From assembly GCF_017592825.1 (NCBI RefSeq), contig NZ_JAGFMD010000012.1, positions 1 through 64,000 of the forward strand: DNA of 64,000 bases, given 5' to 3'. A program made the position numbers and the translations under genes. Positions 16,699 to 43,790 of the stretch are shown here, in pieces. The notes beneath the pieces were generated by a model, which was given only the letters and a program-made list of their open reading frames with translations, was not told the origin of the DNA and searched no databases. The stretch comes from Roseivirga sp. E12 (GTDB lineage Bacteria; Bacteroidota; Bacteroidia; Cytophagales; Cyclobacteriaceae). Numbering within the stretch: position 1 is the first letter of the stretch; each line of letters starts with the position of its first letter.

Positions 16699-19600
16699 TT
16701 ATTGTTGAGAGCTCAGAAGATTACTATTGCCATTTAGTGCAAATGATAGCGCTTGATCATTGTTCCTAAACACAAACAGATGTGGCTGCCCATTAATTTC
16801 AATTTTCTGAAGGGATGTCACATCCCCTTCAAAGATCAAGCCTGAACTTAAATCATCTACAACTTCAAAATTCCCATTGCCCTGTCCAAGAAGTAATAGA
16901 GAAGCTTGTGCGTCTTGATTACCTGAGAATACCTCAGGTGCCGAAGTGTTACCTCCAAGAATCACATCCAACATATTGTCACCATCGACATCTAAAATTT
17001 CAATGGCATGCACAGATGAAAACTGGGCTTGGAAAGGAAGTTCCTTAAGTTCAAAATTACCAACACCATCATTTATGAAAAGTGACGTTTTAAAATGGTT
17101 AGCTCGTAGTGTATATGCCTGATCATAAGCGGCTTGATCGAAAATATCTTTCTTCTCAGCTTCAGCATAACTTATATTGGAAGTGAACTTCTTTCTAATA
17201 AGACTGATTTGTGTAGCCAAGGTAGTCAGGTCGTGGATTAAATATTCTTTATCATTCACATAGTACCCGATTACTGGATCCAATCGTCCGTTTTGATCAT
17301 AGTCATAAGCATATACCGATAGCGGCTTACTCGAACTGGCCTTATACCTACTGTTGAGTCCGAGATTTCCCGCCAGAATGTCTGAGTCTCCATCATTATC
17401 AATGTCCACAATTTTTAAGGTGTTCCACCATCCCTTATATTCAGCTAGTCCATTCTTTGCACCCCATGGCTGCAATACATTATCTTTCCACCCAAATACA
17501 TCAATGGACATATATTCACCGGTTACAACTAGTTCCTCCTGGCCATCCCCATTTAAATCAGCCCATAAGGCATCTTTTAGCATACCAAGCTTTTGGAGTG
17601 CCAGGCCTTTTTCCTGAATCACATCTCTGAACTTTCCGTTGTCATTTTCCAGCAATTGACTGGTCCCTGGAAGTGGGTATTTACTAGGTGTGAGTCTTCC
17701 CGCAACGAAAAGATCTATATCACCGTCTTGGTCAAAATCATTGGCTACTACTTTTGCGCTACTGAAATGAGCTTCAGGCAATCTATTTTCATTCAGTACG
17801 AGCTCACCATTGCCCTGATTAATATAAAGTCTGTCCTGATAACGTGCATCGTTCTCTGGGAATTCGTTGCTTCCACTGGCTACATAGAGGTCTTTGTCTC
17901 CGTCATTGTCTACATCGAAAAACAGGGCGTCCGTATCTTCAGAAGAAACACTTGCTTCCAAGAGAACCTTTTTAAACCCTCCTCCGCGCTGTTGAAGATA
18001 GAGATAGGATGGAGAACCAGCTGCACCGGCTATAAACAGGTCGTTTAATCCATCATTGTTAACATCACCCGTGACTGTTGCTGGCCCTTCGGTCGACAAC
18101 TTATGAGGAAGTAAAGCCTCTCTTTTAAAATCAACAAAGTTTGATTCCATGTGTGCATAATCGAAATTTCGTGACTCAAAGTGAGACATAGAGGGCCCAC
18201 GACCAGGCTCTGATTTGCTATTGTCCGACTTCTCAATGCTGAGAACTTGATTTGTCCTTACATTCACAAACGTCTCTGAAGTATTATCAGACCAAATGAC
18301 TTTTAGGCTATCCACTATGGTAGTAGTTCCCATACCAAAATGAGCCACTGGTTCTACTGAAGACTGAAAACCTCGGTTAATACCAATCTCAGCAGCATAA
18401 GTATGCTCTCCGGCCGTTACAACAACTTTAGAGCCCAATGCTTTGGTCGTATTTCCATCAACGGTGAGCCTTACTCTTAAGAATGATGTGCTATCTAATT
18501 CGTTCGTCCTGTTCTCATATAAAAATGACTCTTGATTGAGGTTGTTTGTAATAACTTCTAAATCACCATCGTTGTCCAAATCTGCATAGGCAGCGCCTGT
18601 AGAAAAACTCGGTGCATCAAGACCCCATTGGGAAGTGATATTCTCAAATTGTAGGTTACCTGTATTTGTAAAGGCATAGTTGGGTATTTTCTCTCCTTTG
18701 AGATTATCCAGAGCAGTTGCTACTACTTCCGACTGAGATTTTCCTTGTCCCTTTTGCGTTTCATTGACTATATAGTCTCTAAAGTCAATATCTGTCACAT
18801 CTTTAACATATCCATTAGTTATGAAAATATCTCTCAACCCATCATTATCTAGGTCTACAACAAGTGGACTCCAACTCCAATCTGTTGTATGTATTCCGGC
18901 ATAGGTTCCAATCTCTTTGAACTTTCCCGACTTTGTATTTAACTGAAGTGAATTACGCATATACTGAGATGTATAGCCTCTTTCAATTAGAATTTGTTGT
19001 CTGTCATAATTGAGTCCACTCAATAATTTTTTTTGTCTTCTATTGTCTTCAGGTAACATATCAACCTGCACAATATCCAGAAGGGCGTCATTGTTAAGGT
19101 CTGCCATATCAATGCCCATACCAAAATTGCTTGTATGCGAAAAGTAATCTCCCAGCTTGTCAGTGAAAGTACCGTCCTGGTTATTGATATATAGGTTGTC
19201 ATCAAATACGAAGTCATTGCTGACATAAAGGTCTAGCCAACCATCTTGATTAAAATCATGAACATTGATACCTAGCCCGTAACCTTCGTGTATAATTCCT
19301 GCCTCGAGGGAAACATCAATGAATTTTCCATTGTCATTTCTATAGAGCCTATCATTACTCTTTGATTTCCCGTTGGAAGATTTGGGCCGAATCACATTGG
19401 GATCCTTTTCAGGGTTATTCTCATAGTTAATGAGGAAAACATCTAAGTCTCCGTCATTATCATAATCAAAAAAACTGCTGTGCGTAGTCAAATTTGGATC
19501 AGCCAATCCATAATGCTCAGCCGATTCAGTAAAAGTTAAATCTCCATTATTGATAAAGAGCTTATTTCTCGTGTCTCTGCCTTCTTCCAAGCCACCAATA

Positions 19601-19992
19601 CTCAAGTATATGTCATCGTGACCATCCTCATTAATATCGACTACACTCACACCATGAACCCAAACCTCCGTGTTGAGACCTGACTTTTCGGTAATGTCTT
19701 CGAACTTCAACTCGCCTTTATTCAAGAATAACTTACTGGTCACCATATTACCAGCCATAAAGACATCTTGTAGTCCGTCATTGTTAAAGTCACCTATACC
19801 AACACCAGATCCATTATAAATATATAAGAAGTGGTAAGCATTCAATTCATTGCTTTCAGTAATGGTATTCTTAAAGGAGAACCCAGAGTTGGAGTTAACT
19901 AAAGCAAAGCGAGATTCCTTGGAGCCTTCATTCTTACATGAGGCAGCCAAAAAGATTAGTAAGCTAAAAAGTAGGAGCTGTAGCCTATTCAT
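16699..19992 (-). CDS. large FG-GAP/VCBS-repeat lipoprotein with ASPIC/UnbV domain
   Basis: This 1097-residue exported lipoprotein (lipobox LAASC near residue 19) consists mostly of FG-GAP/VCBS repeats, seen as many copies of a DxNxDGxxD-type calcium-binding loop such as DFNNDGLQDVFMAG, DYDNDGDLDVFLIN and DVNNDGLNDLFIAG. Two repeat blocks form probable beta-propellers, separated near residues 500-580 by an ASPIC/UnbV-like segment (LTVDGNTTKALGSKVVVTAG). Such proteins often follow susCD pairs in this phylum and are thought to act at the cell surface in binding or handling of glycans. It lies downstream of susD, behind a terminator. Confidence 0.88.
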   Translation of the reverse strand: MNRLQLLLFSLLIFLAASCKNEGSKESRFALVNSNSGFSFKNTITESNELNAYHFLYIYNGSGVGIGDFNNDGLQDVFMAGNMVTSKLFLNKGELKFEDITEKSGLNTEVWVHGVSVVDINEDGHDDIYLSIGGLEEGRDTRNKLFINNGDLTFTESAEHYGLADPNLTTHSSFFDYDNDGDLDVFLINYENNPEKDPNVIRPKSSNGKSKSNDRLYRNDNGKFIDVSLEAGIIHEGYGLGINVHDFNQDGWLDLYVSNDFVFDDNLYINNQDGTFTDKLGDYFSHTSNFGMGIDMADLNNDALLDIVQVDMLPEDNRRQKKLLSGLNYDRQQILIERGYTSQYMRNSLQLNTKSGKFKEIGTYAGIHTTDWSWSPLVVDLDNDGLRDIFITNGYVKDVTDIDFRDYIVNETQKGQGKSQSEVVATALDNLKGEKIPNYAFTNTGNLQFENITSQWGLDAPSFSTGAAYADLDNDGDLEVITNNLNQESFLYENRTNELDSTSFLRVRLTVDGNTTKALGSKVVVTAGEHTYAAEIGINRGFQSSVEPVAHFGMGTTTIVDSLKVIWSDNTSETFVNVRTNQVLSIEKSDNSKSEPGRGPSMSHFESRNFDYAHMESNFVDFKREALLPHKLSTEGPATVTGDVNNDGLNDLFIAGAAGSPSYLYLQQRGGGFKKVLLEASVSSEDTDALFFDVDNDGDKDLYVASGSNEFPENDARYQDRLYINQGNGELVLNENRLPEAHFSSAKVVANDFDQDGDIDLFVAGRLTPSKYPLPGTSQLLENDNGKFRDVIQEKGLALQKLGMLKDALWADLNGDGQEELVVTGEYMSIDVFGWKDNVLQPWGAKNGLAEYKGWWNTLKIVDIDNDGDSDILAGNLGLNSRYKASSSKPLSVYAYDYDQNGRLDPVIGYYVNDKEYLIHDLTTLATQISLIRKKFTSNISYAEAEKKDIFDQAAYDQAYTLRANHFKTSLFINDGVGNFELKELPFQAQFSSVHAIEILDVDGDNMLDVILGGNTSAPEVFSGNQDAQASLLLLGQGNGNFEVVDDLSSGLIFEGDVTSLQKIEINGQPHLFVFRNNDQALSFALNGNSNLLSSQQ

Positions 19993-20030
19993 AATTCAGG
20001 TTGAATATCAAAATTGACCAATTAGTCTAA

Positions 20031-20062
20031 AAAAAGAAAACCGTCCCTTTCGGGACGGTTTT
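20031..20062 (-). terminator. Rho-independent terminator after susCD
   Basis: AAAACCGTCCC and GGGACGGTTTT (20037-20062) pair perfectly around a four-base loop. On the minus strand the hairpin is followed by a long T-rich run (20031-20036 and beyond). It lies between susD and the FG-GAP gene. It could also work on the plus strand. Confidence 0.88.
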
Positions 20063-20082
20063 AAAATTATATTATATGATTT

Positions 20083-21570
20083 CTATTGCTCTGGTTGGTT
20101 ACCACCAAAAGTATAGAAAGGTAATCCGAAGATTGAAAGCTCATCAGCAGGCACTGGCATGTGTCTAGCTGTTGCAGGCTCTAGGTAGTAAAGGTTAGCC
20201 GCATCAGTGTTACCTGCTGGAGTTACCATTCTTCTAAAGAACCATACGTTACATGATCCATGCCAAGTAAACTCAACAACTCTCTCGTAAGTAATAGCAT
20301 TCAATAAATCAGCATCACTTTCTGCACCAGTAAGTGGAGCCAAACCACCACGTGTTACACGTGTGTTATTGATTATAGTAGCAGCTACAGCTTTGTCTCC
20401 ACCAGTTCTGATAAGAGCTTCAGCGCGCATCAAGTCATTCTCAGAAGTTGTCAAGAAATCCATAGGATCCGTGAAACCAGCTCTGTAAGACTCATATCTA
20501 CTGTAGTCGTAGTTAGAGAAGAAGTAGTAACCTCTTGCTGCTGAGAAATCAACACTAGCACTATAAGAATAGTCTGTTGTTATACGGTTATCATCAGGAG
20601 TTGTAATTTCTGGGAAACTATTAACTCCATCAGGCCATGGGTAAGGAACCTCAGCCTCAGGCTTAGAAGGGTTCATCATTTTGATAACCTTCTGGCTTAC
20701 TCTCATCCATCCACCATCTTGGCCTTGGATAAGTTTTCTATGCCACCAGTTGTTACCAGCATCACCCACAGGAGATAATCCTACAGTAGCGCTAGTAGCA
20801 TTGGTAAGAACTCTATTCCAATCTACAGAAGCAGCTTCACCGGCATTTCTAGCCTGAGTCATTTCAAACTTAGCAACAAAAGCGCGAAGAATATTCGCAG
20901 CATCATCACCTGTGAAACTCAATCCAAACCATCCGTCCATTACAAGAGAAGATCCAGAGAACATTCCAATTGACTCCTCAAGTTTAGCGATAGCAGCATC
21001 ATTAACAGCACCATAAGGGCTGAAAGTTAACGCTGAAGGATCAGAATTCTCATCCACGATATAAGCTTGGTCAAACAATAGAGATAAATACCCTAAAGCT
21101 AAACCTTGAACGGCTTTAGCGTTTGCAATTACTTGTTGAGTGATGTCAGCACCCGTTCCATCAGGAACTACGATTGTTGGATCATCAGCAAGAATAGTCA
21201 AAATACTATTGATTGGACCTAAAGTAGCGTAAAGGCCATTCCAAGGATTTCTCCAAGTACCTCTGTTACCGTATGTCAAGTTGTTTTGTAGAGCAGCTCT
21301 AGGGATAGTACCCATATCTCTTGCTCCCCAGTTACCCCAAGACATTGAAGATCCCTGTGCCATAACACTTATTGGCATGTTTGGCTGACTCAACTGAATC
21401 GCTCTCCAAAACGATGTATAAGCACCGTTGATACTCGCAGGATACTCGGCAGGGTTAGCTAATAATGTAGCCCTATCTGGAGCATTGAGGTTCTCCACCT
21501 CCAAGTCTTCACAACCCATTACAAAGGTCGCGAAAGCTGCTGCTAGAATAAATAATTTATATTTTTTCAT
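20083..21570 (-). CDS. SusD/RagB-family outer-membrane lipoprotein
   Basis: This is the surface lipoprotein partner of the SusC encoded upstream (31-bp gap). The lipobox is in FVMGC near residue 20. The TPR-like core includes QPNMPISVMAQGS, WGNWGARDMG and PWNGLYATLGPIN, shared with the orphan SusD at 346-1875. Length (495) is normal. The nutrient is not predictable; no glycoside hydrolase or peptidase gene is nearby to hint at a polysaccharide, which leaves peptides or small compounds possible. Confidence 0.94.
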   Translation of the reverse strand: MKKYKLFILAAAFATFVMGCEDLEVENLNAPDRATLLANPAEYPASINGAYTSFWRAIQLSQPNMPISVMAQGSSMSWGNWGARDMGTIPRAALQNNLTYGNRGTWRNPWNGLYATLGPINSILTILADDPTIVVPDGTGADITQQVIANAKAVQGLALGYLSLLFDQAYIVDENSDPSALTFSPYGAVNDAAIAKLEESIGMFSGSSLVMDGWFGLSFTGDDAANILRAFVAKFEMTQARNAGEAASVDWNRVLTNATSATVGLSPVGDAGNNWWHRKLIQGQDGGWMRVSQKVIKMMNPSKPEAEVPYPWPDGVNSFPEITTPDDNRITTDYSYSASVDFSAARGYYFFSNYDYSRYESYRAGFTDPMDFLTTSENDLMRAEALIRTGGDKAVAATIINNTRVTRGGLAPLTGAESDADLLNAITYERVVEFTWHGSCNVWFFRRMVTPAGNTDAANLYYLEPATARHMPVPADELSIFGLPFYTFGGNQPEQ

Positions 21571-21601
21571 GTTTCTATTTTTTTCTGTTTTGTCGTAAAA
21601 C

Positions 21602-24600
21602 TTAGAAAGTCAAGTCGATAGATCCAGTGAATGTTCTTACTAGTGGGTAAGTAAAGTTATCTACAGGACGCTGCAAGTTTCCAACTTCAGGATCGAAACC
21701 TGTGTAATCACTTAAGATTAGAAGGTTTCTACCAATAATTGAAAGTTTAGCTGCCTTGAATACATTACCTAATCCCATTCTATCAAGAGCATTCTTGTTA
21801 ATGTTATAGTTAATAGCAAGCTCAGCAAGTCTTGTATTAGTAGCATCCTCTAAGTAGAAATCGTTAGATCTGTTAACGTTATAGATTGACAAGTAGTATG
21901 CAGTAGTTTTCTTAGAACCATCAGCAATACCAGCTTGATCAAACATTGGGTGTAACAAATCACGAGATAACCACTGGTTACTCTGGTTGTAAATCAATCC
22001 ACCGCTCTGGTGCGTCCACAACATGAAAACACTAAGGTCCTTGTATCTGAAAGTAGTATTCAGACCTAAGTTGAAATCAGGAGTAGCATTACCTAACAAA
22101 ATGTCATTCAATACAACACCATTGTCATCAGTCTTTCTCAAAACAGACTCTTGGTTAGTTCCAATAGAAGCAGTATGTACTACAAATCCGTCAGCGTTAA
22201 TAGAGTAATCACCGATTACACCGTCTTGTCTGAATGGATCATTCAATACGTTACCAGCACCATCAACAGTTAACTCACTAAGAGAACGAGCATATTGCTC
22301 ACCGTAAATGTCACCAATTTTAGATCCTTCTCTCCAGATGTTCAAACCAACAACTTGGTCTCTTCTGTCGAACTCAGTAATCTCACCTTGGTATCTGTCA
22401 AATACTAAACCGAAAGTCAATCCAACTTTGTCAGTTTTGATTGCTTCGTAATCTAATGTCAACTCAATCGAGTTACCTTCTACAGTACCTGCGTTTGCAA
22501 TTCTCTGACTGAATCCACCTGACGCAGCACCAGAAATTGGCACAGTCAAGATCTGATCCTCAGTTGTCGAATTAGAGTAAGACAACAATGCAGAGAACTT
22601 ATCTAGGAAATCAGCTCTAAGAGAGATTTCATACTCAGTTGTTACAGAGTTCTTCAATTCAGAGTTACCTAGAGTACCATTAGCACTAATCGCACCTGCA
22701 GTTACACCAAATTGCTCATACTGATCAGCAAAGTTAGGTCTGTTACCTGAAGTACCGTAAGAACCTCTAATAGAAAGCTCTTGGAAACCAGGGATATCTA
22801 CATCTTCAGAAATTCTGTAGTTGAAAGAACCTCTAAAGAACGTCTGCCATCTCTGATCAGCACCAAACAAAGACACACCTTCATATCTTACGATAAGGTC
22901 AGCGATATATTTGTTTTGGTAGTCACCTGAAAGTGCTGCTGCAAAGTTATGTGCAGTAATTTGAGTCTCACCAGAAGTTAATGGGTTCGTAGTAAGGAAG
23001 TTGTTATACGTCAAGATACCAGTTGCTTGTTGATCTTGAGCACTTAGGCCCCAAGTTTCACGCTGGTTATCCTCATACTGATAGAACGCTCTAGACCTTA
23101 CATTCCAATCATTGAATGACTTAACATATGATAATGTTGTAGTCGAAATGATTGCAGTCTGATCTGTAAATGCATCAGCTCTCTGACCCAAAGTAGGGTT
23201 GTTACCAGCAGAAATATCTAAGTGTCCTTTTGGTAAGTAAGTGAATGTATGGTTGTCCAATTTATCAATTGAAGCAGAATACTCAACATTCAAACCTTCA
23301 GCGATCTCGTAGTTCAATCTCAAGTTCGTTAAGAATCGAGTTTGACGGAAATCTCTAGTAAGTCTACTTAGAGTATAAAGTGGGTTAGACTCAGAGTTTG
23401 AGAATTTGTTAACGTTCCATCTGTATGGAGTACCATCAATGTTATCCTCAGTCAAATCAGCTGAAGGATCCATCATGAACAAGTTTCTTAAAGCACCTCT
23501 AGTACCTAATCCACCTTGCCAACTTAAATCTCTGTTTCTAATACCATAAAGCGTACGAACAGAAAGTTTCAACTTGTCAGTGATATCCTGATCCAAGTTC
23601 ACTCTTAAGTTTTGACGACTATCTCCATCAACAAGTGGTAAAAGACCTCCTGTAGAAGTATTTTCAAACGAAGCAGCAATGTTACCAGAACCGTAGTTTG
23701 AAGTTACTTGAAGATAAGAAGTCCAGTAATTAGTTCCTTTAAAGAACTGATCAAGGTGATCTACCGTTCCACCTGGGAACGCGTTATCTTGAAGTAAATC
23801 CGGATCATCTTGACCCAAGTTAAATCCATTAGGATCGTTAGCCGTAACTATCGAACCATCAGGGTTTGTAGCGAAGTGATGAGAACCAGTCTTCTCTGGA
23901 GCTCTAGACGAATACAAGAACTCAGCTCCAAACTCATTTCTGAATCTAATAGTCGGAACTGCTCCAGCTTTTGCCCCAGAATTAGTTTGGATAGAAATCA
24001 CACCATTCGCTGCACGAGACCCGTAGAGAGAAGCAGCAGATGCACCTTTCAATACTTCGATGTTCTCAACATCTTGCATGTTGATATCCTGCAAAGATCC
24101 TTCAATAAGGATACCATCAACAACGATAAGAGGAGCATTTGATGTTCTCAACTGGCTAGCTCCACGAATTTGGAGAGTAGCACCAGCAAGAATACCACCG
24201 TTACCTCTTCTGAACCTAACACCAGCAACTTTACCATTAATGGCATTAGCAGCATTGGCTTGAGGTACTTGTTGAAGTAGTTCTTTGTCTACTTTACTTA
24301 CAGAGAATGCAAGTTTTTTCTCTGGAGTTGCAGCAGCAACACCCGTTACAACCACTTCACCGAGTGAAGTAGCATCTGGCACTAGAGATACGTTAATCAC
24401 AGATTGGTTACCAATCGCAATTTCTTGAGTAACATAACCTAGGAATCGGTACACTAAAGTACCACCACTGGAAGGAACACTTATTGAATAAGTTCCGTCA
24501 GCATTAGTAGGAGTACCTTGTGTAGTACCCTTCAAAAAGATAGATACCTGAGGAAGTGGCAGTCCATCGTCTGAACCAGTCACTTTACCAGATACTGTCC

Positions 24601-24673
24601 TGTTCTGGGCTAGCGCTGAGGTTGTTAAAACCGCAAACACGAGCATGACACAAGTCAGTAAAATTCTCTTCAT
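21602..24673 (-). CDS. SusC/RagA-family TonB-linked outer-membrane transporter
   Basis: This 1023-residue protein imports a nutrient across the outer membrane using TonB energy. In order it has a signal peptide (VLTTSALAQ), a carboxypeptidase-regulatory-like domain (about 25-110, VSGKVTGSDDGLPLPQVSIFLKGT split over its length), a plug (about 115-235, with VDGILIEGSLQDINMQDVENIEVLKG in two parts and LYGSRAANGVI), and a 22-strand barrel ending in an aromatic-rich strand (FTGSIDLTF). It is followed by its SusD partner. A -7 promoter box lies at 24724-24731. There is no anti-sigma/ECF regulator pair nearby. Confidence 0.95.
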   Translation of the reverse strand: MKRILLTCVMLVFAVLTTSALAQNRTVSGKVTGSDDGLPLPQVSIFLKGTTQGTPTNADGTYSISVPSSGGTLVYRFLGYVTQEIAIGNQSVINVSLVPDATSLGEVVVTGVAAATPEKKLAFSVSKVDKELLQQVPQANAANAINGKVAGVRFRRGNGGILAGATLQIRGASQLRTSNAPLIVVDGILIEGSLQDINMQDVENIEVLKGASAASLYGSRAANGVISIQTNSGAKAGAVPTIRFRNEFGAEFLYSSRAPEKTGSHHFATNPDGSIVTANDPNGFNLGQDDPDLLQDNAFPGGTVDHLDQFFKGTNYWTSYLQVTSNYGSGNIAASFENTSTGGLLPLVDGDSRQNLRVNLDQDITDKLKLSVRTLYGIRNRDLSWQGGLGTRGALRNLFMMDPSADLTEDNIDGTPYRWNVNKFSNSESNPLYTLSRLTRDFRQTRFLTNLRLNYEIAEGLNVEYSASIDKLDNHTFTYLPKGHLDISAGNNPTLGQRADAFTDQTAIISTTTLSYVKSFNDWNVRSRAFYQYEDNQRETWGLSAQDQQATGILTYNNFLTTNPLTSGETQITAHNFAAALSGDYQNKYIADLIVRYEGVSLFGADQRWQTFFRGSFNYRISEDVDIPGFQELSIRGSYGTSGNRPNFADQYEQFGVTAGAISANGTLGNSELKNSVTTEYEISLRADFLDKFSALLSYSNSTTEDQILTVPISGAASGGFSQRIANAGTVEGNSIELTLDYEAIKTDKVGLTFGLVFDRYQGEITEFDRRDQVVGLNIWREGSKIGDIYGEQYARSLSELTVDGAGNVLNDPFRQDGVIGDYSINADGFVVHTASIGTNQESVLRKTDDNGVVLNDILLGNATPDFNLGLNTTFRYKDLSVFMLWTHQSGGLIYNQSNQWLSRDLLHPMFDQAGIADGSKKTTAYYLSIYNVNRSNDFYLEDATNTRLAELAINYNINKNALDRMGLGNVFKAAKLSIIGRNLLILSDYTGFDPEVGNLQRPVDNFTYPLVRTFTGSIDLTF

Positions 24674-38164: not shown

Positions 38165-38722
38165 CTATAAATCTTCAGCCACAGTAAAGACAACCGTAAG
38201 GCTGTATATACCTGGTGCATAATTTATGCCTGGTGTGAGCTTATAACTCACGCGAAATTTATGGGTAAAGGGATCGGCTATCGGATCACCTGGGTCATTG
38301 GTACCTACACCGGTGCCAATGGAAATATCATTTGCGTTTGAGCCGATAAGATAGGTTGGAGTGGCAATGTCTTGAAGTGGAAAAAAGGCAGATTGCTGCG
38401 AGGTACGACCAGGGCTATCAGCACGTATCTCGAGAATACTTACCGGAATAGCGTTAGTACCCGCACTAGAGTAGGTCTCAATTAAGTCCCATTGGCCTAC
38501 AGTAAACGTTTCAGTACCTACATATAAGTCCCAGTCAACAGTTGTGTCTATGGTGAATTCTGTCGCATTACCCAGAACTACTCCACTCGTGTATTGGCGA
38601 ATAGTATTAAAGGTGAAGGACAGATCAGTTCCTTTGGTAATCTCCAGATTTAATGTCTGCGCGGAGATGCCAAATGAAACTGCTATATGCAAGACCGTTA
38701 ATAACATAATTGGTCGCAGCAT
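38165..38722 (-). CDS. secreted pilin-like protein 2 of the chaperone-usher-like locus
   Basis: Starting at 38722 the 185-residue product has a signal peptide (MLRPIMLLTVLHIAVSFGISAQ) and a beta-rich mature domain. It is a paralogue of the protein at 38850-39455: both have FxFxTIxQY, a WDLxV(G/N)xET block and the same ending, a Y-x-L-(T/S)-PG stretch, then a Gly-Tyr strand with alternating hydrophobic residues, then T-x-AEDL. That last strand resembles the C-terminal strand of chaperone-usher pilins. The longer frame to 38776 lengthens the signal region without need. A hairpin (38742-38771) separates it from its paralogue. Function by inference: minor fibre subunit or adhesin. Confidence 0.72.
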   Translation of the reverse strand: MLRPIMLLTVLHIAVSFGISAQTLNLEITKGTDLSFTFNTIRQYTSGVVLGNATEFTIDTTVDWDLYVGTETFTVGQWDLIETYSSAGTNAIPVSILEIRADSPGRTSQQSAFFPLQDIATPTYLIGSNANDISIGTGVGTNDPGDPIADPFTHKFRVSYKLTPGINYAPGIYSLTVVFTVAEDL

Positions 38723-38741
38723 GTTTAAAGTTATAAAAATA

Positions 38742-38771
38742 AAAAGAGGTAACAATAATGTTACCCCTTTT
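38742..38771 (-). terminator. hairpin between the two pilin-like genes
   Basis: Left arm 38742-38753 and right arm 38760-38771 pair over 11 of 12 positions (core GGTAAC/GTTACC) with a six-base loop. On the minus strand it is followed by CTTTTTATTTTT. It can stop most transcripts after the first pilin-like gene and let some continue into the second. Confidence 0.75.
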
Positions 38772-38849
38772 ACCAATCAACATAAATCGAACTAACTTAT
38801 TTACTACGTATTAGTAAAAGTTATTTTATTAAATATTCTATTCTAAATC

Positions 38850-39455
38850 TTAAAGATCTTCTGCCAAAGTATAGATAAGATTCATTCCGTAGTATCCGGC
38901 CTGATAAGTATCTAATCCAGGAGAAAGTCTGTAGTCAACTCTGAACTGGTGAGTGTTAGGAGAAGTCAGGTAAGTACCTGCTGCACCTGGAGTGTCACCC
39001 GCATCAACGATACCACCGTCACCAATAATAGCAAGGTTGTCAGTACCAGTTAGTGCAGTAAATCCACTACCAATTAAAGAGTTACCAGCAGCATCAATAG
39101 CTCTGATTCCAATAATACTTGAAGGAACAGAAGGGCTACCAGCTAAAGAGTAAGTAGTGAATTGTTCCCAAGTCGCTGTCTCAGCATTTACGTGTAAATC
39201 CCAAGGTACAGTAGACTCAACTCTCAATTCAGTTACGTTCGTCTTAGTAATACCATCCACATACTGAGGAATAGTACTGAAGATGAAATCCACGTTAGGA
39301 TCCGTCAATAAAGTCAAATCAAGAACACCTTGAAGCTCCAAAGAAACGTAAACGTTCTCGTTGTCTGTAGGAAGCTGAGCAAATGCGCTTGAGCTTAATG
39401 TGAAGGAAGCAACAGCAACTACTGCTAACATCCTAAGTTTAAATACATTTTTCAT
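38850..39455 (-). CDS. secreted pilin-like protein 1 of the chaperone-usher-like locus
   Basis: From 39455 the 201-residue product starts MKNVFKLRMLAVVAVASF and has a signal peptide ending SSSAFAQ. The mature part is rich in Thr, Val, Asn and Gly with predicted beta-strands and no cysteine. It ends LIYTLAEDL after a Gly-Tyr strand like those of chaperone-usher pilins. The longer frame to 39530 adds a poor N-terminus. It lies 154 bp after the PapD-like gene and ahead of the hairpin at 38742-38771, so it may be the abundant subunit. Paralogous to the product at 38165-38722. I do not recognise a named family with certainty. Confidence 0.75.
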   Translation of the reverse strand: MKNVFKLRMLAVVAVASFTLSSSAFAQLPTDNENVYVSLELQGVLDLTLLTDPNVDFIFSTIPQYVDGITKTNVTELRVESTVPWDLHVNAETATWEQFTTYSLAGSPSVPSSIIGIRAIDAAGNSLIGSGFTALTGTDNLAIIGDGGIVDAGDTPGAAGTYLTSPNTHQFRVDYRLSPGLDTYQAGYYGMNLIYTLAEDL

Positions 39456-39609
39456 AATAATAATGTTTAGGTTAAAAGTTTCGACATGTGAATATATGGA
39501 CTTATTTTCATATATAAAAACATTCAGCAAAAAAAACTGTTCTTTTTTTCTCTGACTGCCTTATAATCAAGTAAATAAGCTTCATTCGATCAATTGCCAT
39601 TTATTGTTA

Positions 39610-40446
39610 TTAATGTTGATTTCCTTTTTGTGGTACTAGTATTTCCATTTCTGCTGCCTCAACTTCTTCCCTATTACCATAGTCCATCACAGCCAGCACG
39701 GAGTAGCGCCCTGGTTTGATTCGGTCTGGAATAGAAAAGATGGTATTACGGATTCCCGCAGGTAGCATTGTAAATCCTTTTGTTGTTATTCGTTCTGTCT
39801 GCCCTGTACTCAGACTGGTCAATTCTATATATGAGTTACATCGCAAGAAGGTCTCTCCTGCATTCTTCATCTCAATTGTAAATAAGTCTTCGGTATAGTC
39901 GAGCGAAAGTATTTCTCCTTTTGACTCGGTAACCATTGGTGGTGTTTGGAATACATACACTCCAAATCGATAAGATTGATTTACTCTAACCGTTAAGGTC
40001 TCTCCATCCTTACCTTCTATTTCCGGAGGTGCCAACCTTACATAGGCAACCGCCCACCTCGCTAGCAATGCCGATGAATCTGCTGGTACATCCATAAGGA
40101 TAGTTACATCCTGAGATTCACCTGGACCTAATTGGAATACAGAAGGTGTCGCACTAAGCCAGTCAGCACAACTACGGCTGACTTCTCCTTTTGCCATAAA
40201 CTCACTCTTACCTTGAAGTGTGGCTTTAAAATCACCGAAGTTTATTTGAAACCCTTGCATTTCATTCGAACTGTTTGTAACAGTTATCCTTCCTCTAGCC
40301 GAAGCACCAGGAGCAACCTTGAAGTTAATTCGCGTAGGAGAAGTAGATATCTTTTGCCCGAAAGCATCTATACCTGTACTTAACATTACGAGTAGCATGA
40401 ACCCTAAACTTCTCACCACATTCAATAAAACATTAGACCTTGACAT
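39610..40446 (-). CDS. PapD-like periplasmic chaperone
   Basis: From 40446 the 278-residue product has a signal peptide (MLLVMLSTGIDAFGQ) and a PapD-type first Ig domain. SPTRINF aligns with the SxTRxxF start of PapD-type chaperones, with Arg39 in the place of the conserved Arg8. The block PSVFQLGPGESQDVTI followed by AVAYVRLAPPE mirrors the F1-G1 region. SYRFGVYVFQTPP puts Arg160 where Lys112 normally anchors the subunit C-terminus. The alignment is by eye. A second Ig-like domain follows. The longer frame to 40467 would overlap the upstream gene; 40446 leaves seven bases. Confidence 0.8.
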   Translation of the reverse strand: MSRSNVLLNVVRSLGFMLLVMLSTGIDAFGQKISTSPTRINFKVAPGASARGRITVTNSSNEMQGFQINFGDFKATLQGKSEFMAKGEVSRSCADWLSATPSVFQLGPGESQDVTILMDVPADSSALLARWAVAYVRLAPPEIEGKDGETLTVRVNQSYRFGVYVFQTPPMVTESKGEILSLDYTEDLFTIEMKNAGETFLRCNSYIELTSLSTGQTERITTKGFTMLPAGIRNTIFSIPDRIKPGRYSVLAVMDYGNREEVEAAEMEILVPQKGNQH

Positions 40447-40453
40447 ACTTGAA

Positions 40454-43396
40454 TTAATTATTATCAAACTTTTTAATATTTATTCTTCGATTCTTTTCTA
40501 TCAAATAGAATGTCAATTGATAATTGGCATTCGAGTTATTGATTTCCAAAGCGTAATTATCCTGAGCAAACTGCAATCTCTTGTCTATCCCTGCCCCACT
40601 AGCTCTGATACTATACTTTCCAAATGGAACGAAAATCCTGAATTCACCTGACGAATCTGTGAGCCCTGAATAAACCCTTTCATCTTCGCCAACTGCAGAG
40701 ATTCTAATCTCATCTAAGTCTACCTCTTCTACTAAAGCAGAGTACGTAGCCTTCTGTACAATTACTTTACCATTTATTTGCACTCCTCTAGTCAAAGGGA
40801 TAAAAACGGTTTCATCCTTTGCCAATACTAATGGTGTGTCATCAGGATTAAACCAACCCTCCGAATCTCCCAATACTTGCGACTCTATACTATAGCTTCC
40901 CATATTAAGGTTTTCGAATAGTGCAGAACCGGTCGCTCCGGTTATGGCTGATTTACCATTTACTTTTATTAATACATTCTGAACAAAGTCTTCACCGCTG
41001 TCTCTAATGCCATTTCCATCCAGATCCTTAAACACGGCTACCTTGATCTTGTAACTCTTCACTCCTGGTCTTCTAAACGCAAAGTCCTTTTTGACACCAA
41101 TCCTCAAGAAGAAATTAGACTGCTTGAAAGTGGTCAGAACACCATCTATACCTTGTTGCGCATTAAGGGAAGTCAATGGGCTCTCTCCCTGGTTAATCAT
41201 TAGCAACTCGGTTCCTAGTGTGAAGGTATATCCGCTCTTGGCATAGTAAGACAGATCTTGAGAAGCTGTAACCCTCCATCTAGCAAGTACAGATTCGTAA
41301 GACGAATTAAATCTTGGGCGAATAGAAAGGCCAATTTTCCTGAAATACATTGTGGCAAATGCAGAGATAAATACAGATTGAGGGTTCAATCCGTCATTCA
41401 CTATTCTGAAGTTATCCGTTATTGAGGCAGGCCCATAGTTATATCTTACTACGGCATTCAGGTTTTTATACTTCAAACGATTCTCCCATTGAGCCACCAA
41501 ATAAGGATCGATATCTTCGTGACCTGGAACTTTCGAGAACCCAGCAAAGAATTTTGAAAACAATCTAAAATCTCTGCGCTTCCCTCCAGAAGAATAACTC
41601 AAACCAGCACCTGAATTCTGAATACGCAAGCCTAGCAGCTGCTCATCAGAATATCTCGGAAATAATCTAACAGTCCCGTAATCTGTTCTCCATTCATACT
41701 GAAGTTCGTAGATGTTTCTCTTTCTTAAATCATTGTCAAACCTAAAGCCTCTAATAAAAGATATAGGTCTAGATTCATTAATTGCTGCTCTTAAGCTTAC
41801 CGAACGATTGCCCTTTAGGGTATACCTTAAATTGACATTACCTGACTTAGTACCGCGTTGAAGGGCTAAAAACGATCCTGAACTATAATTACCTGTCATC
41901 GCTACATTCAGCTTGCCTACGCGACCACCGTAACGTAATTCTGCTCCGTACCCTGAGACCTCGAAGACACTATCAGGATCGAAAGTATCCGTTTCATTAC
42001 TGATACCCGCTGCAATACCAATGTTGTGATACTTAGAAATTCTATGGTCAATTTTCAATCGGTAGAGGTCACCATCTTTGAAATTAAATTCATCTTTCCG
42101 GTTAACCATTTGAACCTCAATGTTTGAGTTCCTCTTTACTCTATAACCAAGACGTGCCCCATAGAACTGTAGGTTATTTGCTGATAACCTGCCACTTCGG
42201 TTAGAATTACCAACATATATAGCACCCACTTCAAATTTTCCTAGTCTGGCCTGAGCTTTAACACCCTCACCATTTAATAGGAGTCCCATATTCTCTCCTA
42301 TATTACCAGCAGCTACCAAAAGCTTAGGTGAAGCATATTGAATGAATCTATTAGATGGTAAGAAATCAGTACCAGAGATAACATTACTTGTTATGATGGA
42401 CTGATAGTTATATCGTACATGACGCTGTCTACCCAAGTCGGCCTCTCCTTTGAAGTCCAGGGTAAAATTGGTAAAGTTAGAAAGGAGGTTGTAGGAATTA
42501 AGCTCTACAGTGAGCGGAATGATTGAGCTTCCTTTGTCATTATCAAACTTGACTGACTCACTTAACTTGACAAAGTCTACCCTTCTACCTTTAACTTGTT
42601 TCTTGTTTTCTGGATTTGCAGCCTGAATCTGAAGTCTAAACAACCGCTTTTCATCCAGATTACTGTTTTGATCATCAGGTCGATCAGTAAAGAAGTATCC
42701 CTTTTCCTTTCGGTCTAACACCTTAACCTTTACAACAAAGGAAGTATCTATACCAACCGGAAGGGTAACTAAAGTAGTGTTGTCTCTGAATGCACTACCA
42801 TTCTCATCCAATACTTGGAGCTTGACATCAGGTGTAAAGGTTACACGTAGATCTTCAACGGCATTACCATTATTCTGTAACCTGACTCTAACGCTGGAAC
42901 TATCAGAATCATTAGGGAATACCACCTGACGATCACTTACAGAGAGCTTCCATGCCGAAATCTTCTTTATCTCAAGAGTCCAAGGGGTTGAGGCTAGTGC
43001 ATTACCAAACTCTGAATAGGCTGTAGCACTTATAAAGTAGTTTACATTCCCTGCCGTTTCCCTAGAAGGCACTAACCTTATAGGTATAAACATTGAATCC
43101 TTAGCAGCAACGGTATGAAGTTTATTAACATCATTAATCACTCTCCATCCCTGTGGGGATGCCAAGTCGACACTAAAACGAATGGGTTTGGAAGTATTAT
43201 TGACAGCTTTCACTACGTTGCTGACCACTTCATCATCAACAGACGCAGTCTCGCTCGACTTTAAAAAGTCGAGTCTAAAGCCAGTGTTGAGCACATTAGA
43301 TTGGGCGTTCACCTGTGAAATGGTGAGAAATCCAATTAATGCACCAATCACAGTCACGGAGAGAAATCTCCAGAGGCTGGGAAGACGCGTAGTCAA
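40454..43396 (-). CDS. large outer-membrane barrel, candidate usher, TTG start
   Basis: The 980-residue product starts at TTG 43396; the next upstream in-frame codon of use is blocked by a stop three codons back, and a signal peptide (VIGALIGFLTISQVNAQ) follows. Residues about 35-330 look like two or three Ig-like (NEW3-type) domains (WRVINDVNKLHTVAAKDSMF over two parts; RVRLQNNGNAVEDLRVTF). About 330-800 is a barrel-like region of alternating polar and aromatic strands. The C-terminal part has a calcium-type loop DLDGNGIRDSGEDFVQNV and two carboxypeptidase-regulatory-like domains. This is broadly the order of a usher (periplasmic domain, barrel, C-terminal domains) but without an obvious FimD N-terminal domain. 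Partners follow in the same operon. Confidence 0.72.
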   Translation of the reverse strand: MTTRLPSLWRFLSVTVIGALIGFLTISQVNAQSNVLNTGFRLDFLKSSETASVDDEVVSNVVKAVNNTSKPIRFSVDLASPQGWRVINDVNKLHTVAAKDSMFIPIRLVPSRETAGNVNYFISATAYSEFGNALASTPWTLEIKKISAWKLSVSDRQVVFPNDSDSSSVRVRLQNNGNAVEDLRVTFTPDVKLQVLDENGSAFRDNTTLVTLPVGIDTSFVVKVKVLDRKEKGYFFTDRPDDQNSNLDEKRLFRLQIQAANPENKKQVKGRRVDFVKLSESVKFDNDKGSSIIPLTVELNSYNLLSNFTNFTLDFKGEADLGRQRHVRYNYQSIITSNVISGTDFLPSNRFIQYASPKLLVAAGNIGENMGLLLNGEGVKAQARLGKFEVGAIYVGNSNRSGRLSANNLQFYGARLGYRVKRNSNIEVQMVNRKDEFNFKDGDLYRLKIDHRISKYHNIGIAAGISNETDTFDPDSVFEVSGYGAELRYGGRVGKLNVAMTGNYSSGSFLALQRGTKSGNVNLRYTLKGNRSVSLRAAINESRPISFIRGFRFDNDLRKRNIYELQYEWRTDYGTVRLFPRYSDEQLLGLRIQNSGAGLSYSSGGKRRDFRLFSKFFAGFSKVPGHEDIDPYLVAQWENRLKYKNLNAVVRYNYGPASITDNFRIVNDGLNPQSVFISAFATMYFRKIGLSIRPRFNSSYESVLARWRVTASQDLSYYAKSGYTFTLGTELLMINQGESPLTSLNAQQGIDGVLTTFKQSNFFLRIGVKKDFAFRRPGVKSYKIKVAVFKDLDGNGIRDSGEDFVQNVLIKVNGKSAITGATGSALFENLNMGSYSIESQVLGDSEGWFNPDDTPLVLAKDETVFIPLTRGVQINGKVIVQKATYSALVEEVDLDEIRISAVGEDERVYSGLTDSSGEFRIFVPFGKYSIRASGAGIDKRLQFAQDNYALEINNSNANYQLTFYLIEKNRRINIKKFDNN

Positions 43397-43706
43397 AATA
43401 AGTTAGTCCTTTGATGTTAGGTATTTCAAATATATGTAATAACTAACGATTTCACACAATTTGTAAACAGCTATTTCCGTTGCTCCAAGCACTTTTTCCA
43501 GACATTTGAGTCAAAAGCTTATGCAAGAGACAAAATTTTACATGTATAAAAAGATGAATCTTGATGCAATAATCGTTCTGCAAACTCTTGAAAGGACAAA
43601 ATATTAGTCTGTAATCAGGCTTCTGGCCAAACTTTTGACTTCTATGAGATACTTGAGAAATTAGCGGGCACTGCAAATGAAAAGAGCTCCTGATCAGGAG
43701 CTCTAG
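43397..43706. promoter_or_regulatory. intergenic region between the usher-like gene and tRNA-Leu(GAG)
   Basis: About 310 bp with no supported gene. On the minus strand it holds an AGGA about 13 bases before the TTG start, and a -7 box TATATTTG at 43427-43434. The nearest TTG is 22 bp upstream (43457-43459), wider than the usual 19. The tRNA terminator occupies 43681-43704. The 93-codon frame at 43452-43733 overlaps the tRNA and is rejected. Confidence 0.5.
43681..43704 (-). terminator. terminator of tRNA-Leu(GAG)
   Basis: A perfect 22-base palindrome (43683-43704, core GAGCTCCTGATCAGGAGCTC) lies just 3' of the tRNA and is followed on the minus strand by T residues. The T-run is short. Confidence 0.8.
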
Positions 43707-43790
43707 TGCGCACGAGAGGAGTCGAACCTCCACGCAAGTTAATGCACCACCCCCTCAAGGTGGCGTGTCTACCAATTCCACCACGTGCGC
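43707..43790 (-). tRNA. tRNA-Leu, anticodon GAG
   Basis: On the minus strand the acceptor arms GCGCACG and CGTGCGC pair fully, with A as discriminator (43707). The anticodon stem CCACC/GGTGG encloses TTGAGGG, giving GAG. Long variable arm and GTGGTGGAATTGGTAGACAC in the D-arm region make it class II tRNA-Leu. CCA is not encoded. Promoter and terminator are both clear. Confidence 0.96.

Follow-up and report, generated by a model that had tools for sequence, protein, structure and literature searches.

A candidate chaperone-assembled surface fibre locus with a non-canonical usher-equivalent in Roseivirga sp. E12

Can a member of the Bacteroidota assemble a surface fibre with a PapD-type chaperone and an outer-membrane protein that is not recognizable as an usher? 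This question is raised by four leftward genes of Roseivirga sp. E12, located at 38165..43396 of the window, which here means the whole stretch of 64,000 nucleotides analyzed (contig NZ_JAGFMD010000012.1 of assembly GCF_017592825.1, positions 1 to 64,000). Chaperone-usher assembly is described as proteobacterial, with the widespread archaic type named from proteobacteria, Cyanobacteria, and Deinococcus-Thermus; Bacteroidota do not appear in the passage concerned (PMC4654587). An earlier note on this DNA had proposed a separate kind of chaperone-usher-type fibre whose barrel shows no obvious homology to FimD, and as far as sequence goes this proposal holds. We consider it likely that the products of the four genes form a surface fibre assembled by a chaperone and a non-canonical usher-equivalent. 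The features concerned are as follows:

40454..43396, minus strand: 980-residue predicted outer-membrane protein, candidate usher-equivalent of ‘Ig-Ig-barrel’ type (open reading frame; domain limits from profile trimming)
39610..40467, minus strand: periplasmic chaperone of the PapD/FimC family, 285 residues, two Ig domains (profile and conserved residues)
38850..39530, minus strand: subunit A, 226 residues, likely shaft subunit (likely true start 39455)
38165..38776, minus strand: subunit B, 203 residues, paralogue of A that lacks an N-terminal extension and is likely the terminal subunit (likely true start 38722)
38742..38771, minus strand: hairpin followed by a T-rich tail in the intercistronic gap from A to B, likely a partial terminator favouring A over B

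All four open reading frames (ORFs) lie where the earlier note had placed them; those of the barrel protein and the chaperone overlap and are followed by A and B. Their TTG starts are the first start codons taken by the ORF finder, and most relatives start at Met26 of A (39455) and at about Met19 of B (38722). In all four proteins, the signal peptide is followed by Gln (by eye). This corresponds to the Q-rule described in Bacteroidetes for substrates of signal peptidase I (PMC5837995), and the four proteins therefore do not appear lipoprotein-like.

Profiles were compared with hhalign in local mode, and the comparison percentages below are hhalign scores unless identity is specified. The reference sets from E. 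coli comprised 11 K-12 fimbrial chaperones, seven ushers, and FimA-type pilins. Compared loci carry the working labels Roseivirga-type, flav, ign, baln, and chlo, of which baln and chlo are usher-like loci elsewhere in the phylum.

Judged by its profile and conserved residues, the 285-residue protein is a two-domain chaperone of the PapD/FimC family. Against the E. coli chaperones, its profile scored 96.5% over 199 columns that span the two domains, with the N-terminal TR motifs in register, compared with at most 56.3% for 40 block-shuffled decoys (next 24.6%) and 0.2% for the reversed profile. The earlier note had reported PapD-type motifs in the first domain. Pfam gave weak generic Ig-type matches alone for the window chaperone (NPCBM, ASH, fn3_5, Cep192, WxLIP, Ig_VWA7), with PapD_N not among them. 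PapD_N reached E <= 0.1 in the chaperones of 5 of 13 genus members, the best value (0.0025) falling below the cut-off. One protein of another genome (G209) is matched both by the window chaperone profile and, above the Pfam cut-off, by PapD_N. Against the E. coli set, the flav-set chaperones scored 95.2% and the ign-set chaperones 37.8%; the baln- and chlo-set chaperones matched the Roseivirga set at 98.7%. As a control, the Ig domains of the barrel proteins scored 0.4–28% against the Roseivirga-type chaperone. A PDB sequence search with the chaperone profile returned only synaptotagmin C2 domains and two chance-level entries, and the single chaperone and barrel sequences returned nothing useful.

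Two residues of the family are retained. Residues are numbered from the ORF finder’s start, so that Arg46 corresponds to Arg39 counted from Met8, one of the two basic anchors named in the earlier note. This position stands: Arg46 falls in the column of FimC Arg8 and is Arg in all 19 close relatives used for residue counts, as in 8/10 flav and 9/11 E. coli chaperones (0/7 ign, 0/13 baln, 1/7 chlo, and 0/2 Omnitrophota). Pro60 of EcpB, described in the passage concerned as the only invariant residue of the chaperone-usher superfamily (PMC4654587), corresponds to chaperone Pro108 in the FimC TPP column (EcpB numbering checked). This proline is kept in 19/19 close relatives, and also in 13/13 baln, 7/7 chlo, 6/7 ign, and 2/2 Omnitrophota chaperones. 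Gln38, at the end of the signal peptide by eye, is likewise invariant.

The two small proteins had been described as paralogues with a T-x-AEDL end, and the comparison agrees: A and B match each other at 100% and terminate in YTLAEDL and FTVAEDL. They differ at the N-terminus. Mature A begins with QLPTDNENVYVSLELQG, which includes a donor-strand-like extension; in the joint alignment, this appears as roughly 15 additional residues in which hydrophobic positions alternate. The shared strand FxFxTI is preceded by about 29–31 mature residues in A and by 14 in B in 19/19 close relatives; six A rows gave 33–36 residues where an earlier Gln was taken as the mature start. In the joint sets (n = 26 each), the core motif V/I-x-M/L-x-L-x-G/P occurs in all 26 A extensions, and the full motif V/I-x-V/I-x-M/L-x-L-x-G/P in 23, the first residue being Ala or Ser in three Pedobacter-type sequences. 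None of the 26 B sequences has the full motif. The B N-terminus is short in 24/26, and in a wider set it has 17–18 residues in 5/7. Conservation is also higher in the extension than elsewhere in A (83% versus 69% mean majority identity, n = 19). A donor strand requires alternating hydrophobic residues in an N-terminal extension, and a terminal subunit requires none. From its pattern, the extension of A looks as a donor strand would.

Outside the genus, A and B matched the small subunits of flav-set loci at 98.9% and 98.2% and, more weakly, the DUF4402-type subunits of the baln set at 84% and 88%, with controls against chaperone and barrel domains at 0.2–10.6%. One of the two baln/chlo-locus subunits scanned passes the Pfam DUF4402 cut-off. 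Neither A nor B matched any Pfam family at E <= 1, DUF4402 (PF14352) included, and a search of this genome with the subunit A profile gave no additional match at the same threshold. Two assignments of A and B were rejected: membership of DUF4402, on this absence of any Pfam family, and type IX secretion substrates, as neither protein has a match to the C-terminal sorting domain Por_Secre_tail at E <= 1. In 5 of 10 flav-set loci, a protein of 457–478 residues carries the small-subunit domain at its C-terminus (99.2%), as does a 471-residue protein in locus L256. These long proteins are laid out like a tip adhesin with two domains; no long subunit of this kind occurs in the Roseivirga clusters. 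In loci L101 and L103 (genomes G070 and G152), several very similar 181-residue subunit genes lie beside the chaperone, with some farther off, a probable case of subunit gene amplification.

Between A and B, a hairpin of 12–14 pairs with a T-rich tail is present in 13/13 Roseivirga loci examined and in 2 of 6 loci outside the genus, being absent in four. Where present, it was equalled in 0 of 200 base shuffles per locus. Several pairs have changed on both sides and still pair, though the register of this count is rough for a few loci. The hairpin is likely a partial terminator, which suggests more A than B.

The 980-residue protein has a signal peptide ending before Gln32 (by eye), an Ig-like stretch at about 35–280, a barrel-like region at about 285–768, and beta-sandwiches at about 770–945. 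The Ig-like and carboxypeptidase-like ends described in the earlier note have sub-cut-off support in Pfam: NPCBM_assoc (E 0.01) at the N-terminus, and SdrD_B (E 3.3e-6) and CarboxypepD_reg (E 9.8e-7), both just under their cut-offs, at the C-terminus. In the members scanned, Pfam cut-offs are passed by C-terminal domains alone (SdrD_B in Pontibacter, CarboxypepD_reg in locus L106); for the barrel-like region and the subunits, neither Pfam nor NCBIfam gave a model. A PDB search with the barrel profile reached SdrD and NOMO2, both by way of the C-terminal domains, and otherwise gave entries at chance level. The PHROGs search gave one match at 0.074 for the barrel protein and none for the other three proteins. 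A strand counter gave 26–32 segments in the barrel-like region; it is not used for strand number because it overcounted two controls (FhuA 25–33 for 22, BamA 17–23 for 16). Sequence pattern, domain layout, and linkage lead us to infer that the protein is a barrel.

Is this barrel that of an usher? Two barrel types adjoin homologous chaperones: an usher-like type in the baln and chlo loci, and the type shared by Roseivirga, flav, and ign. Against the seven E. coli ushers, the chlo-set barrels scored 98.6% (578 columns), and in barrel-only comparisons the chlo and baln sets scored 96.4% and 82.3%. The Roseivirga, flav, and ign proteins share their N-terminal Ig-like domains (94.8–98.1%) and barrel (44–99.6%). 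Their barrels scored 0.2–4.2% against the three usher-like sets, which is not significant and agrees with the earlier view that the barrel is not obviously homologous to FimD. The controls LptD, FhuA, BamA, and PgaA scored 0.1–0.5%, and two TonB-dependent receptors of the window 0.1–2.7%. When the barrel profiles of the Roseivirga, flav, and ign proteins (T2) and of the usher-like sets (T1) were merged, the score was 3.2%; two sub-combinations reached 16.8% and 26.2% at inconsistent positions. The merged match to the usher barrel is thus at most 26%, over 51 columns, and 20 T2 decoys scored 0.1–0.3%.

Roseivirga-type N-terminal regions scored 0.0–1.1% against those of ushers; this comparison is not discriminating, since the usher-like baln and chlo sets match the E. 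coli regions at only 0.2–0.3% while matching each other at 99.2%. The C-terminal domains are common to both barrel types (75–98%) and scored 1.3–10.7% directly against those of E. coli. The Pfam model PF00577 had no match in the Roseivirga genome and matched 1 of 198 phylum genomes (G231), below cut-off, at a gene adjoining a chaperone also matched by the window chaperone profile. PF00577 likewise misses the chlo set and is therefore insensitive here, so the usher argument is carried by the profile comparisons. At the usher position, loci L170 (2906–6433, genome G123) and L113 (2172–6647, genome G100) have long proteins with C-terminal SPOR matches (E 2.4e-14 in L170; 0.0015, below cut-off, in L113). 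These are apparently usher-like proteins fused to peptidoglycan-binding domains.

Linkage of the four genes was a further point of the earlier note, which would have given up its proposal had related genomes lacked it; the linkage is there and exceeds chance. Within the genus, the chaperone was found in 14 of 19 members searched (own included) and the full-length barrel in the same 14. Of 14 genus regions retrieved, 13 have the order barrel-chaperone-A-B, in a largely conserved neighbourhood. Four members (G009, G010, G014, G015) have neither a chaperone nor a barrel match. The fifth, G017 (80% complete), retains about the first 300 barrel residues (ORF of 286) beside an M42 peptidase gene (L036, G017:C93), with no chaperone, A, or B at this locus, a natural loss. 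In locus L027 (G004:C52, 2975–6684), ORFs of 998 and 238 residues lie between crcB-like and M42 genes, a site where most relatives have nothing.

Single-sequence queries found the chaperone in 0 of 20 other relatives and the barrel in 0 of 40, and profiles were needed beyond this range. A scan of named genomes with the barrel alignment gave 22 loci, 18 with a full-length barrel and four through C-terminal domains only. All four genes are present in each of the 18. Twelve of these are Roseivirga-type (41–57% identity; their genomes partly those of the 14-region genus set), the closest being in Roseivirga ehrenbergii, seohaensis, pacifica, thermotolerans, spongicola, and further Roseivirga, and in metagenome-assembled genomes (MAGs) labelled Flammeovirgaceae, Cyclobacteriaceae, and Cytophagales. 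The other six (28–29% identity) belong to Pedobacter, Pontibacter, Paradesertivirga, a Sphingobacteriaceae MAG, and two Bacteroidota MAGs, and the first four of these have the order A-B-barrel-chaperone.

First searches of the phylum (296 genomes) matched 14 genomes with the barrel profile, mostly via the C-terminus, and 37 with the chaperone profile. With wider profiles, 375 genomes of the class gave a chaperone match at E <= 0.001 in 63 and a barrel-profile match in 153, most of the latter through the common C-terminal domain only. At stricter thresholds (E <= 1.4e-40 for the chaperone and E <= 3e-58 for the barrel, with weaker rows dropped), the counts were 53 genomes for the chaperone, 51 for the barrel, and 50 for both (Fisher p 2e-57, uncorrected for relatedness). 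The barrel lies within 10 kb at 46 of 57 chaperone loci; of the remaining 11, ten have no barrel row on the contig and one has it at 12.5 kb. Each of 12 loci opened (L246 being the same contig as L128) contains chaperone, barrel, and at least one subunit match, with at least two subunit matches in 11.

Related modules are also present in other phyla, namely in Deinococcus plasmids and, less surely, in Omnitrophota MAGs. Three Deinococcus plasmids (L258, L259, L260) carry a chaperone homologue (21–23% identity) in a module of subunit-sized ORF, chaperone, subunit-sized ORF, and a 1013–1090-residue protein resembling the Ig-barrel-C-terminal-domain layout; all are annotated as hypothetical except one ‘carboxypeptidase-like’. 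Their chaperones matched the Roseivirga set at 99.1%. The large protein matched the ign-set protein at 99.5% over 804 columns but not the ign barrel part alone (0.1%). A tblastn search of plasmid sequences with the barrel gave no match. The two small ORFs scored 0.2–2.0% against the Roseivirga subunits, and 7.8% and 47% against those of flav. Among the four loci of the scan matched through C-terminal domains only, the two Omnitrophota MAGs (L134, L135) have chaperone matches of E 4.7e-14 and 8.2e-20 beside proteins of 1020 and 984 residues; the other two have no chaperone match alongside. In L134 and L135, the approximately 1000-residue protein has the shared C-terminal domains, and a subunit-like protein of 456–463 residues is also present.

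How might such a system work? A and B would enter the periplasm by Sec, where the PapD-type chaperone would cap their incomplete Ig folds and anchor their C-termini. The 980-residue Ig-Ig-barrel protein would then accept chaperone-subunit complexes and pass subunits across the outer membrane. A would polymerize by donor-strand exchange through its N-terminal extension to form the shaft, and B, which has no extension, would be the terminal subunit, like the tip subunit of known systems. The hairpin after A may set an excess of A over B.

Several results weigh against this interpretation. The barrel-like region has no match among the ushers and other barrels compared, and the proposed pore role therefore rests on linkage and domain layout. 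In the chaperone, the second classical anchor appears not to be conserved: the Lys112 column holds Tyr171 with both MAFFT and hhalign (Tyr in 13, His in 6 of 19). The second basic anchor of the earlier note, Arg160 (Arg167 here), is only partly supported, falling on Lys112 only by an ungapped by-eye reading from the G1 strand (Arg in 13, Gln in 6 of 19). At the column of the non-classical Arg89, with its EcpB numbering checked, the residue is Ala139 (Ala in 14, Gly in 3, Ser in 2 of 19). All ten flav-set chaperones lack the superfamily’s invariant proline at the aligned position. In addition, the baln and ign chaperones scored 74% and 67% against the Ig domains of the ign-set barrel, so part of such scores is generic Ig similarity. 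Two of 26 B sequences have longer N-termini (30 and 37 residues; motif absent). Similarity to known pilins is weak, with B at 78% and A at 4.5% against the FimA set.

The origin of the 980-residue protein allows two accounts. It may possibly be a true usher that has diverged past sequence recognition, with a changed N-terminus and perhaps no plug; this concerns ancestry and is compatible with a chaperone-assembled fibre. Its C-terminal domains match those of the chlo set at 97.1%, whose barrels in turn match E. coli ushers, and the same chaperone family stands beside both barrel types. The start of the flav barrel is in register with that of ushers (31–103 to 31–108 at 0.4%; 32–105 to 31–108 at 6.2%), and the two higher merged barrel scores exceed all 20 decoys. 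However, those two scores are inconsistently placed, the single-set and full merged barrel comparisons stay at the low values above, and the C-terminal domains are of a common mobile type whose direct match to E. coli ushers is 1.3%. The set would operate in the manner of a chaperone-usher system, with a chaperone of that family; because the barrel has no significant similarity to usher barrels, it is not filed as one. It may be, as we tentatively propose, a separate class of chaperone-dependent fibre pathway in Bacteroidota, reaching Deinococcota and Omnitrophota, that kept the PapD-type chaperone and uses as its pore a plugless Ig-Ig-barrel protein rather than an usher. On this proposal, the Ig-Ig-barrel protein would have taken over the usher’s role or arisen beside it.

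Other explanations dispense with the fibre or the chaperone. It is unlikely that the chaperone and barrel merely export two monomeric or surface-coating beta-sandwich proteins. The locus has two subunits only, neither with a Pfam family, and the genome has no further A-profile match; however, the conserved extension of A has no evident use in a monomer, and some related loci have long two-domain subunits. Still harder to accept is a reading of the PapD-like protein as a periplasmic protein with generic Ig domains (NEW3/ASH/WxLIP-like) and of the barrel as an unrelated porin. The weak Pfam matches would fit, being to generic Ig families and not PapD_N, but the barrel Ig domains score far below the FimC family against the Roseivirga-type chaperone, and the G209 homologue that passes the PapD_N cut-off is matched by the window profile too. 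FimA/Mfa1 (type V) fimbriae are Bacteroidota surface fibres with lipoprotein subunits and without chaperone or usher. A variant of these would suit the phylum and nothing more, and is highly improbable given the chaperone and barrel; it was rejected because A and B have Gln and no lipobox Cys after the signal peptide (by eye) and no Pfam match at E <= 1. A chaperone-assembled fibre remains the reading we favour.

Such a fibre would share much with classical chaperone-usher systems (FimC/FimD, PapD/PapC): a PapD-family chaperone alignable over both domains with the Arg8 column and invariant proline, a subunit with a donor-strand-like extension, an outer-membrane protein with C-terminal beta-sandwiches, and one gene cluster. 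It differs in its outer-membrane protein, whose N-terminus is Ig-like and whose similarity to the barrel and plug of ushers is not significant, in the Tyr of the Lys112 column, and in phylum. With archaic (Csu) and alternative (ECP, CS1/CFA) pili it shares a two-domain chaperone with the invariant proline, and the related barrel of L106 has a sub-threshold CooC_C match (25.5 bits, cut-off 29); the Arg89 column is Ala, Gly, or Ser in Roseivirga, and profiles found no usher barrel. The baln and chlo loci have in common with it a homologous chaperone, small beta-rich subunits, and the C-terminal domain type, whereas the match of their barrels to E. coli ushers, which extends to the plug stretch, is not shared by the Roseivirga type. 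No Bacteroidota chaperone-usher system was found among the matches listed in the openly licensed literature, where DUF4402 is not mentioned either.

Around the locus, at 43683–43790, a short way upstream of the barrel gene, there is a tRNA-Leu gene directly followed by a terminator-like hairpin. A sigma-70 scan gave 10 promoter-like sites against 15.1 in shuffles, fewer than chance, and a Bacteroidota-type promoter pattern gave 5 matches against 3.2 expected, near chance; no promoter is therefore claimed. Elsewhere in the window (16699–24673), a 1097-residue FG-GAP/ASPIC-UnbV repeat protein lies near a TonB-dependent receptor with CarboxypepD_reg, by its look an ordinary SusC-type neighbourhood.

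If the proposed pathway is real, about 13% of the sampled class genomes (50/375) would carry a relative of the chaperone-usher pathway with a different outer-membrane protein, for whose barrel, as for the subunits, the searched family libraries hold no model. Bacteroidota would gain a second kind of surface fibre besides the FimA/Mfa1 lipoprotein type. The plug is held to be central to the usher mechanism, and its dispensability for donor-strand assembly across the outer membrane would become testable.

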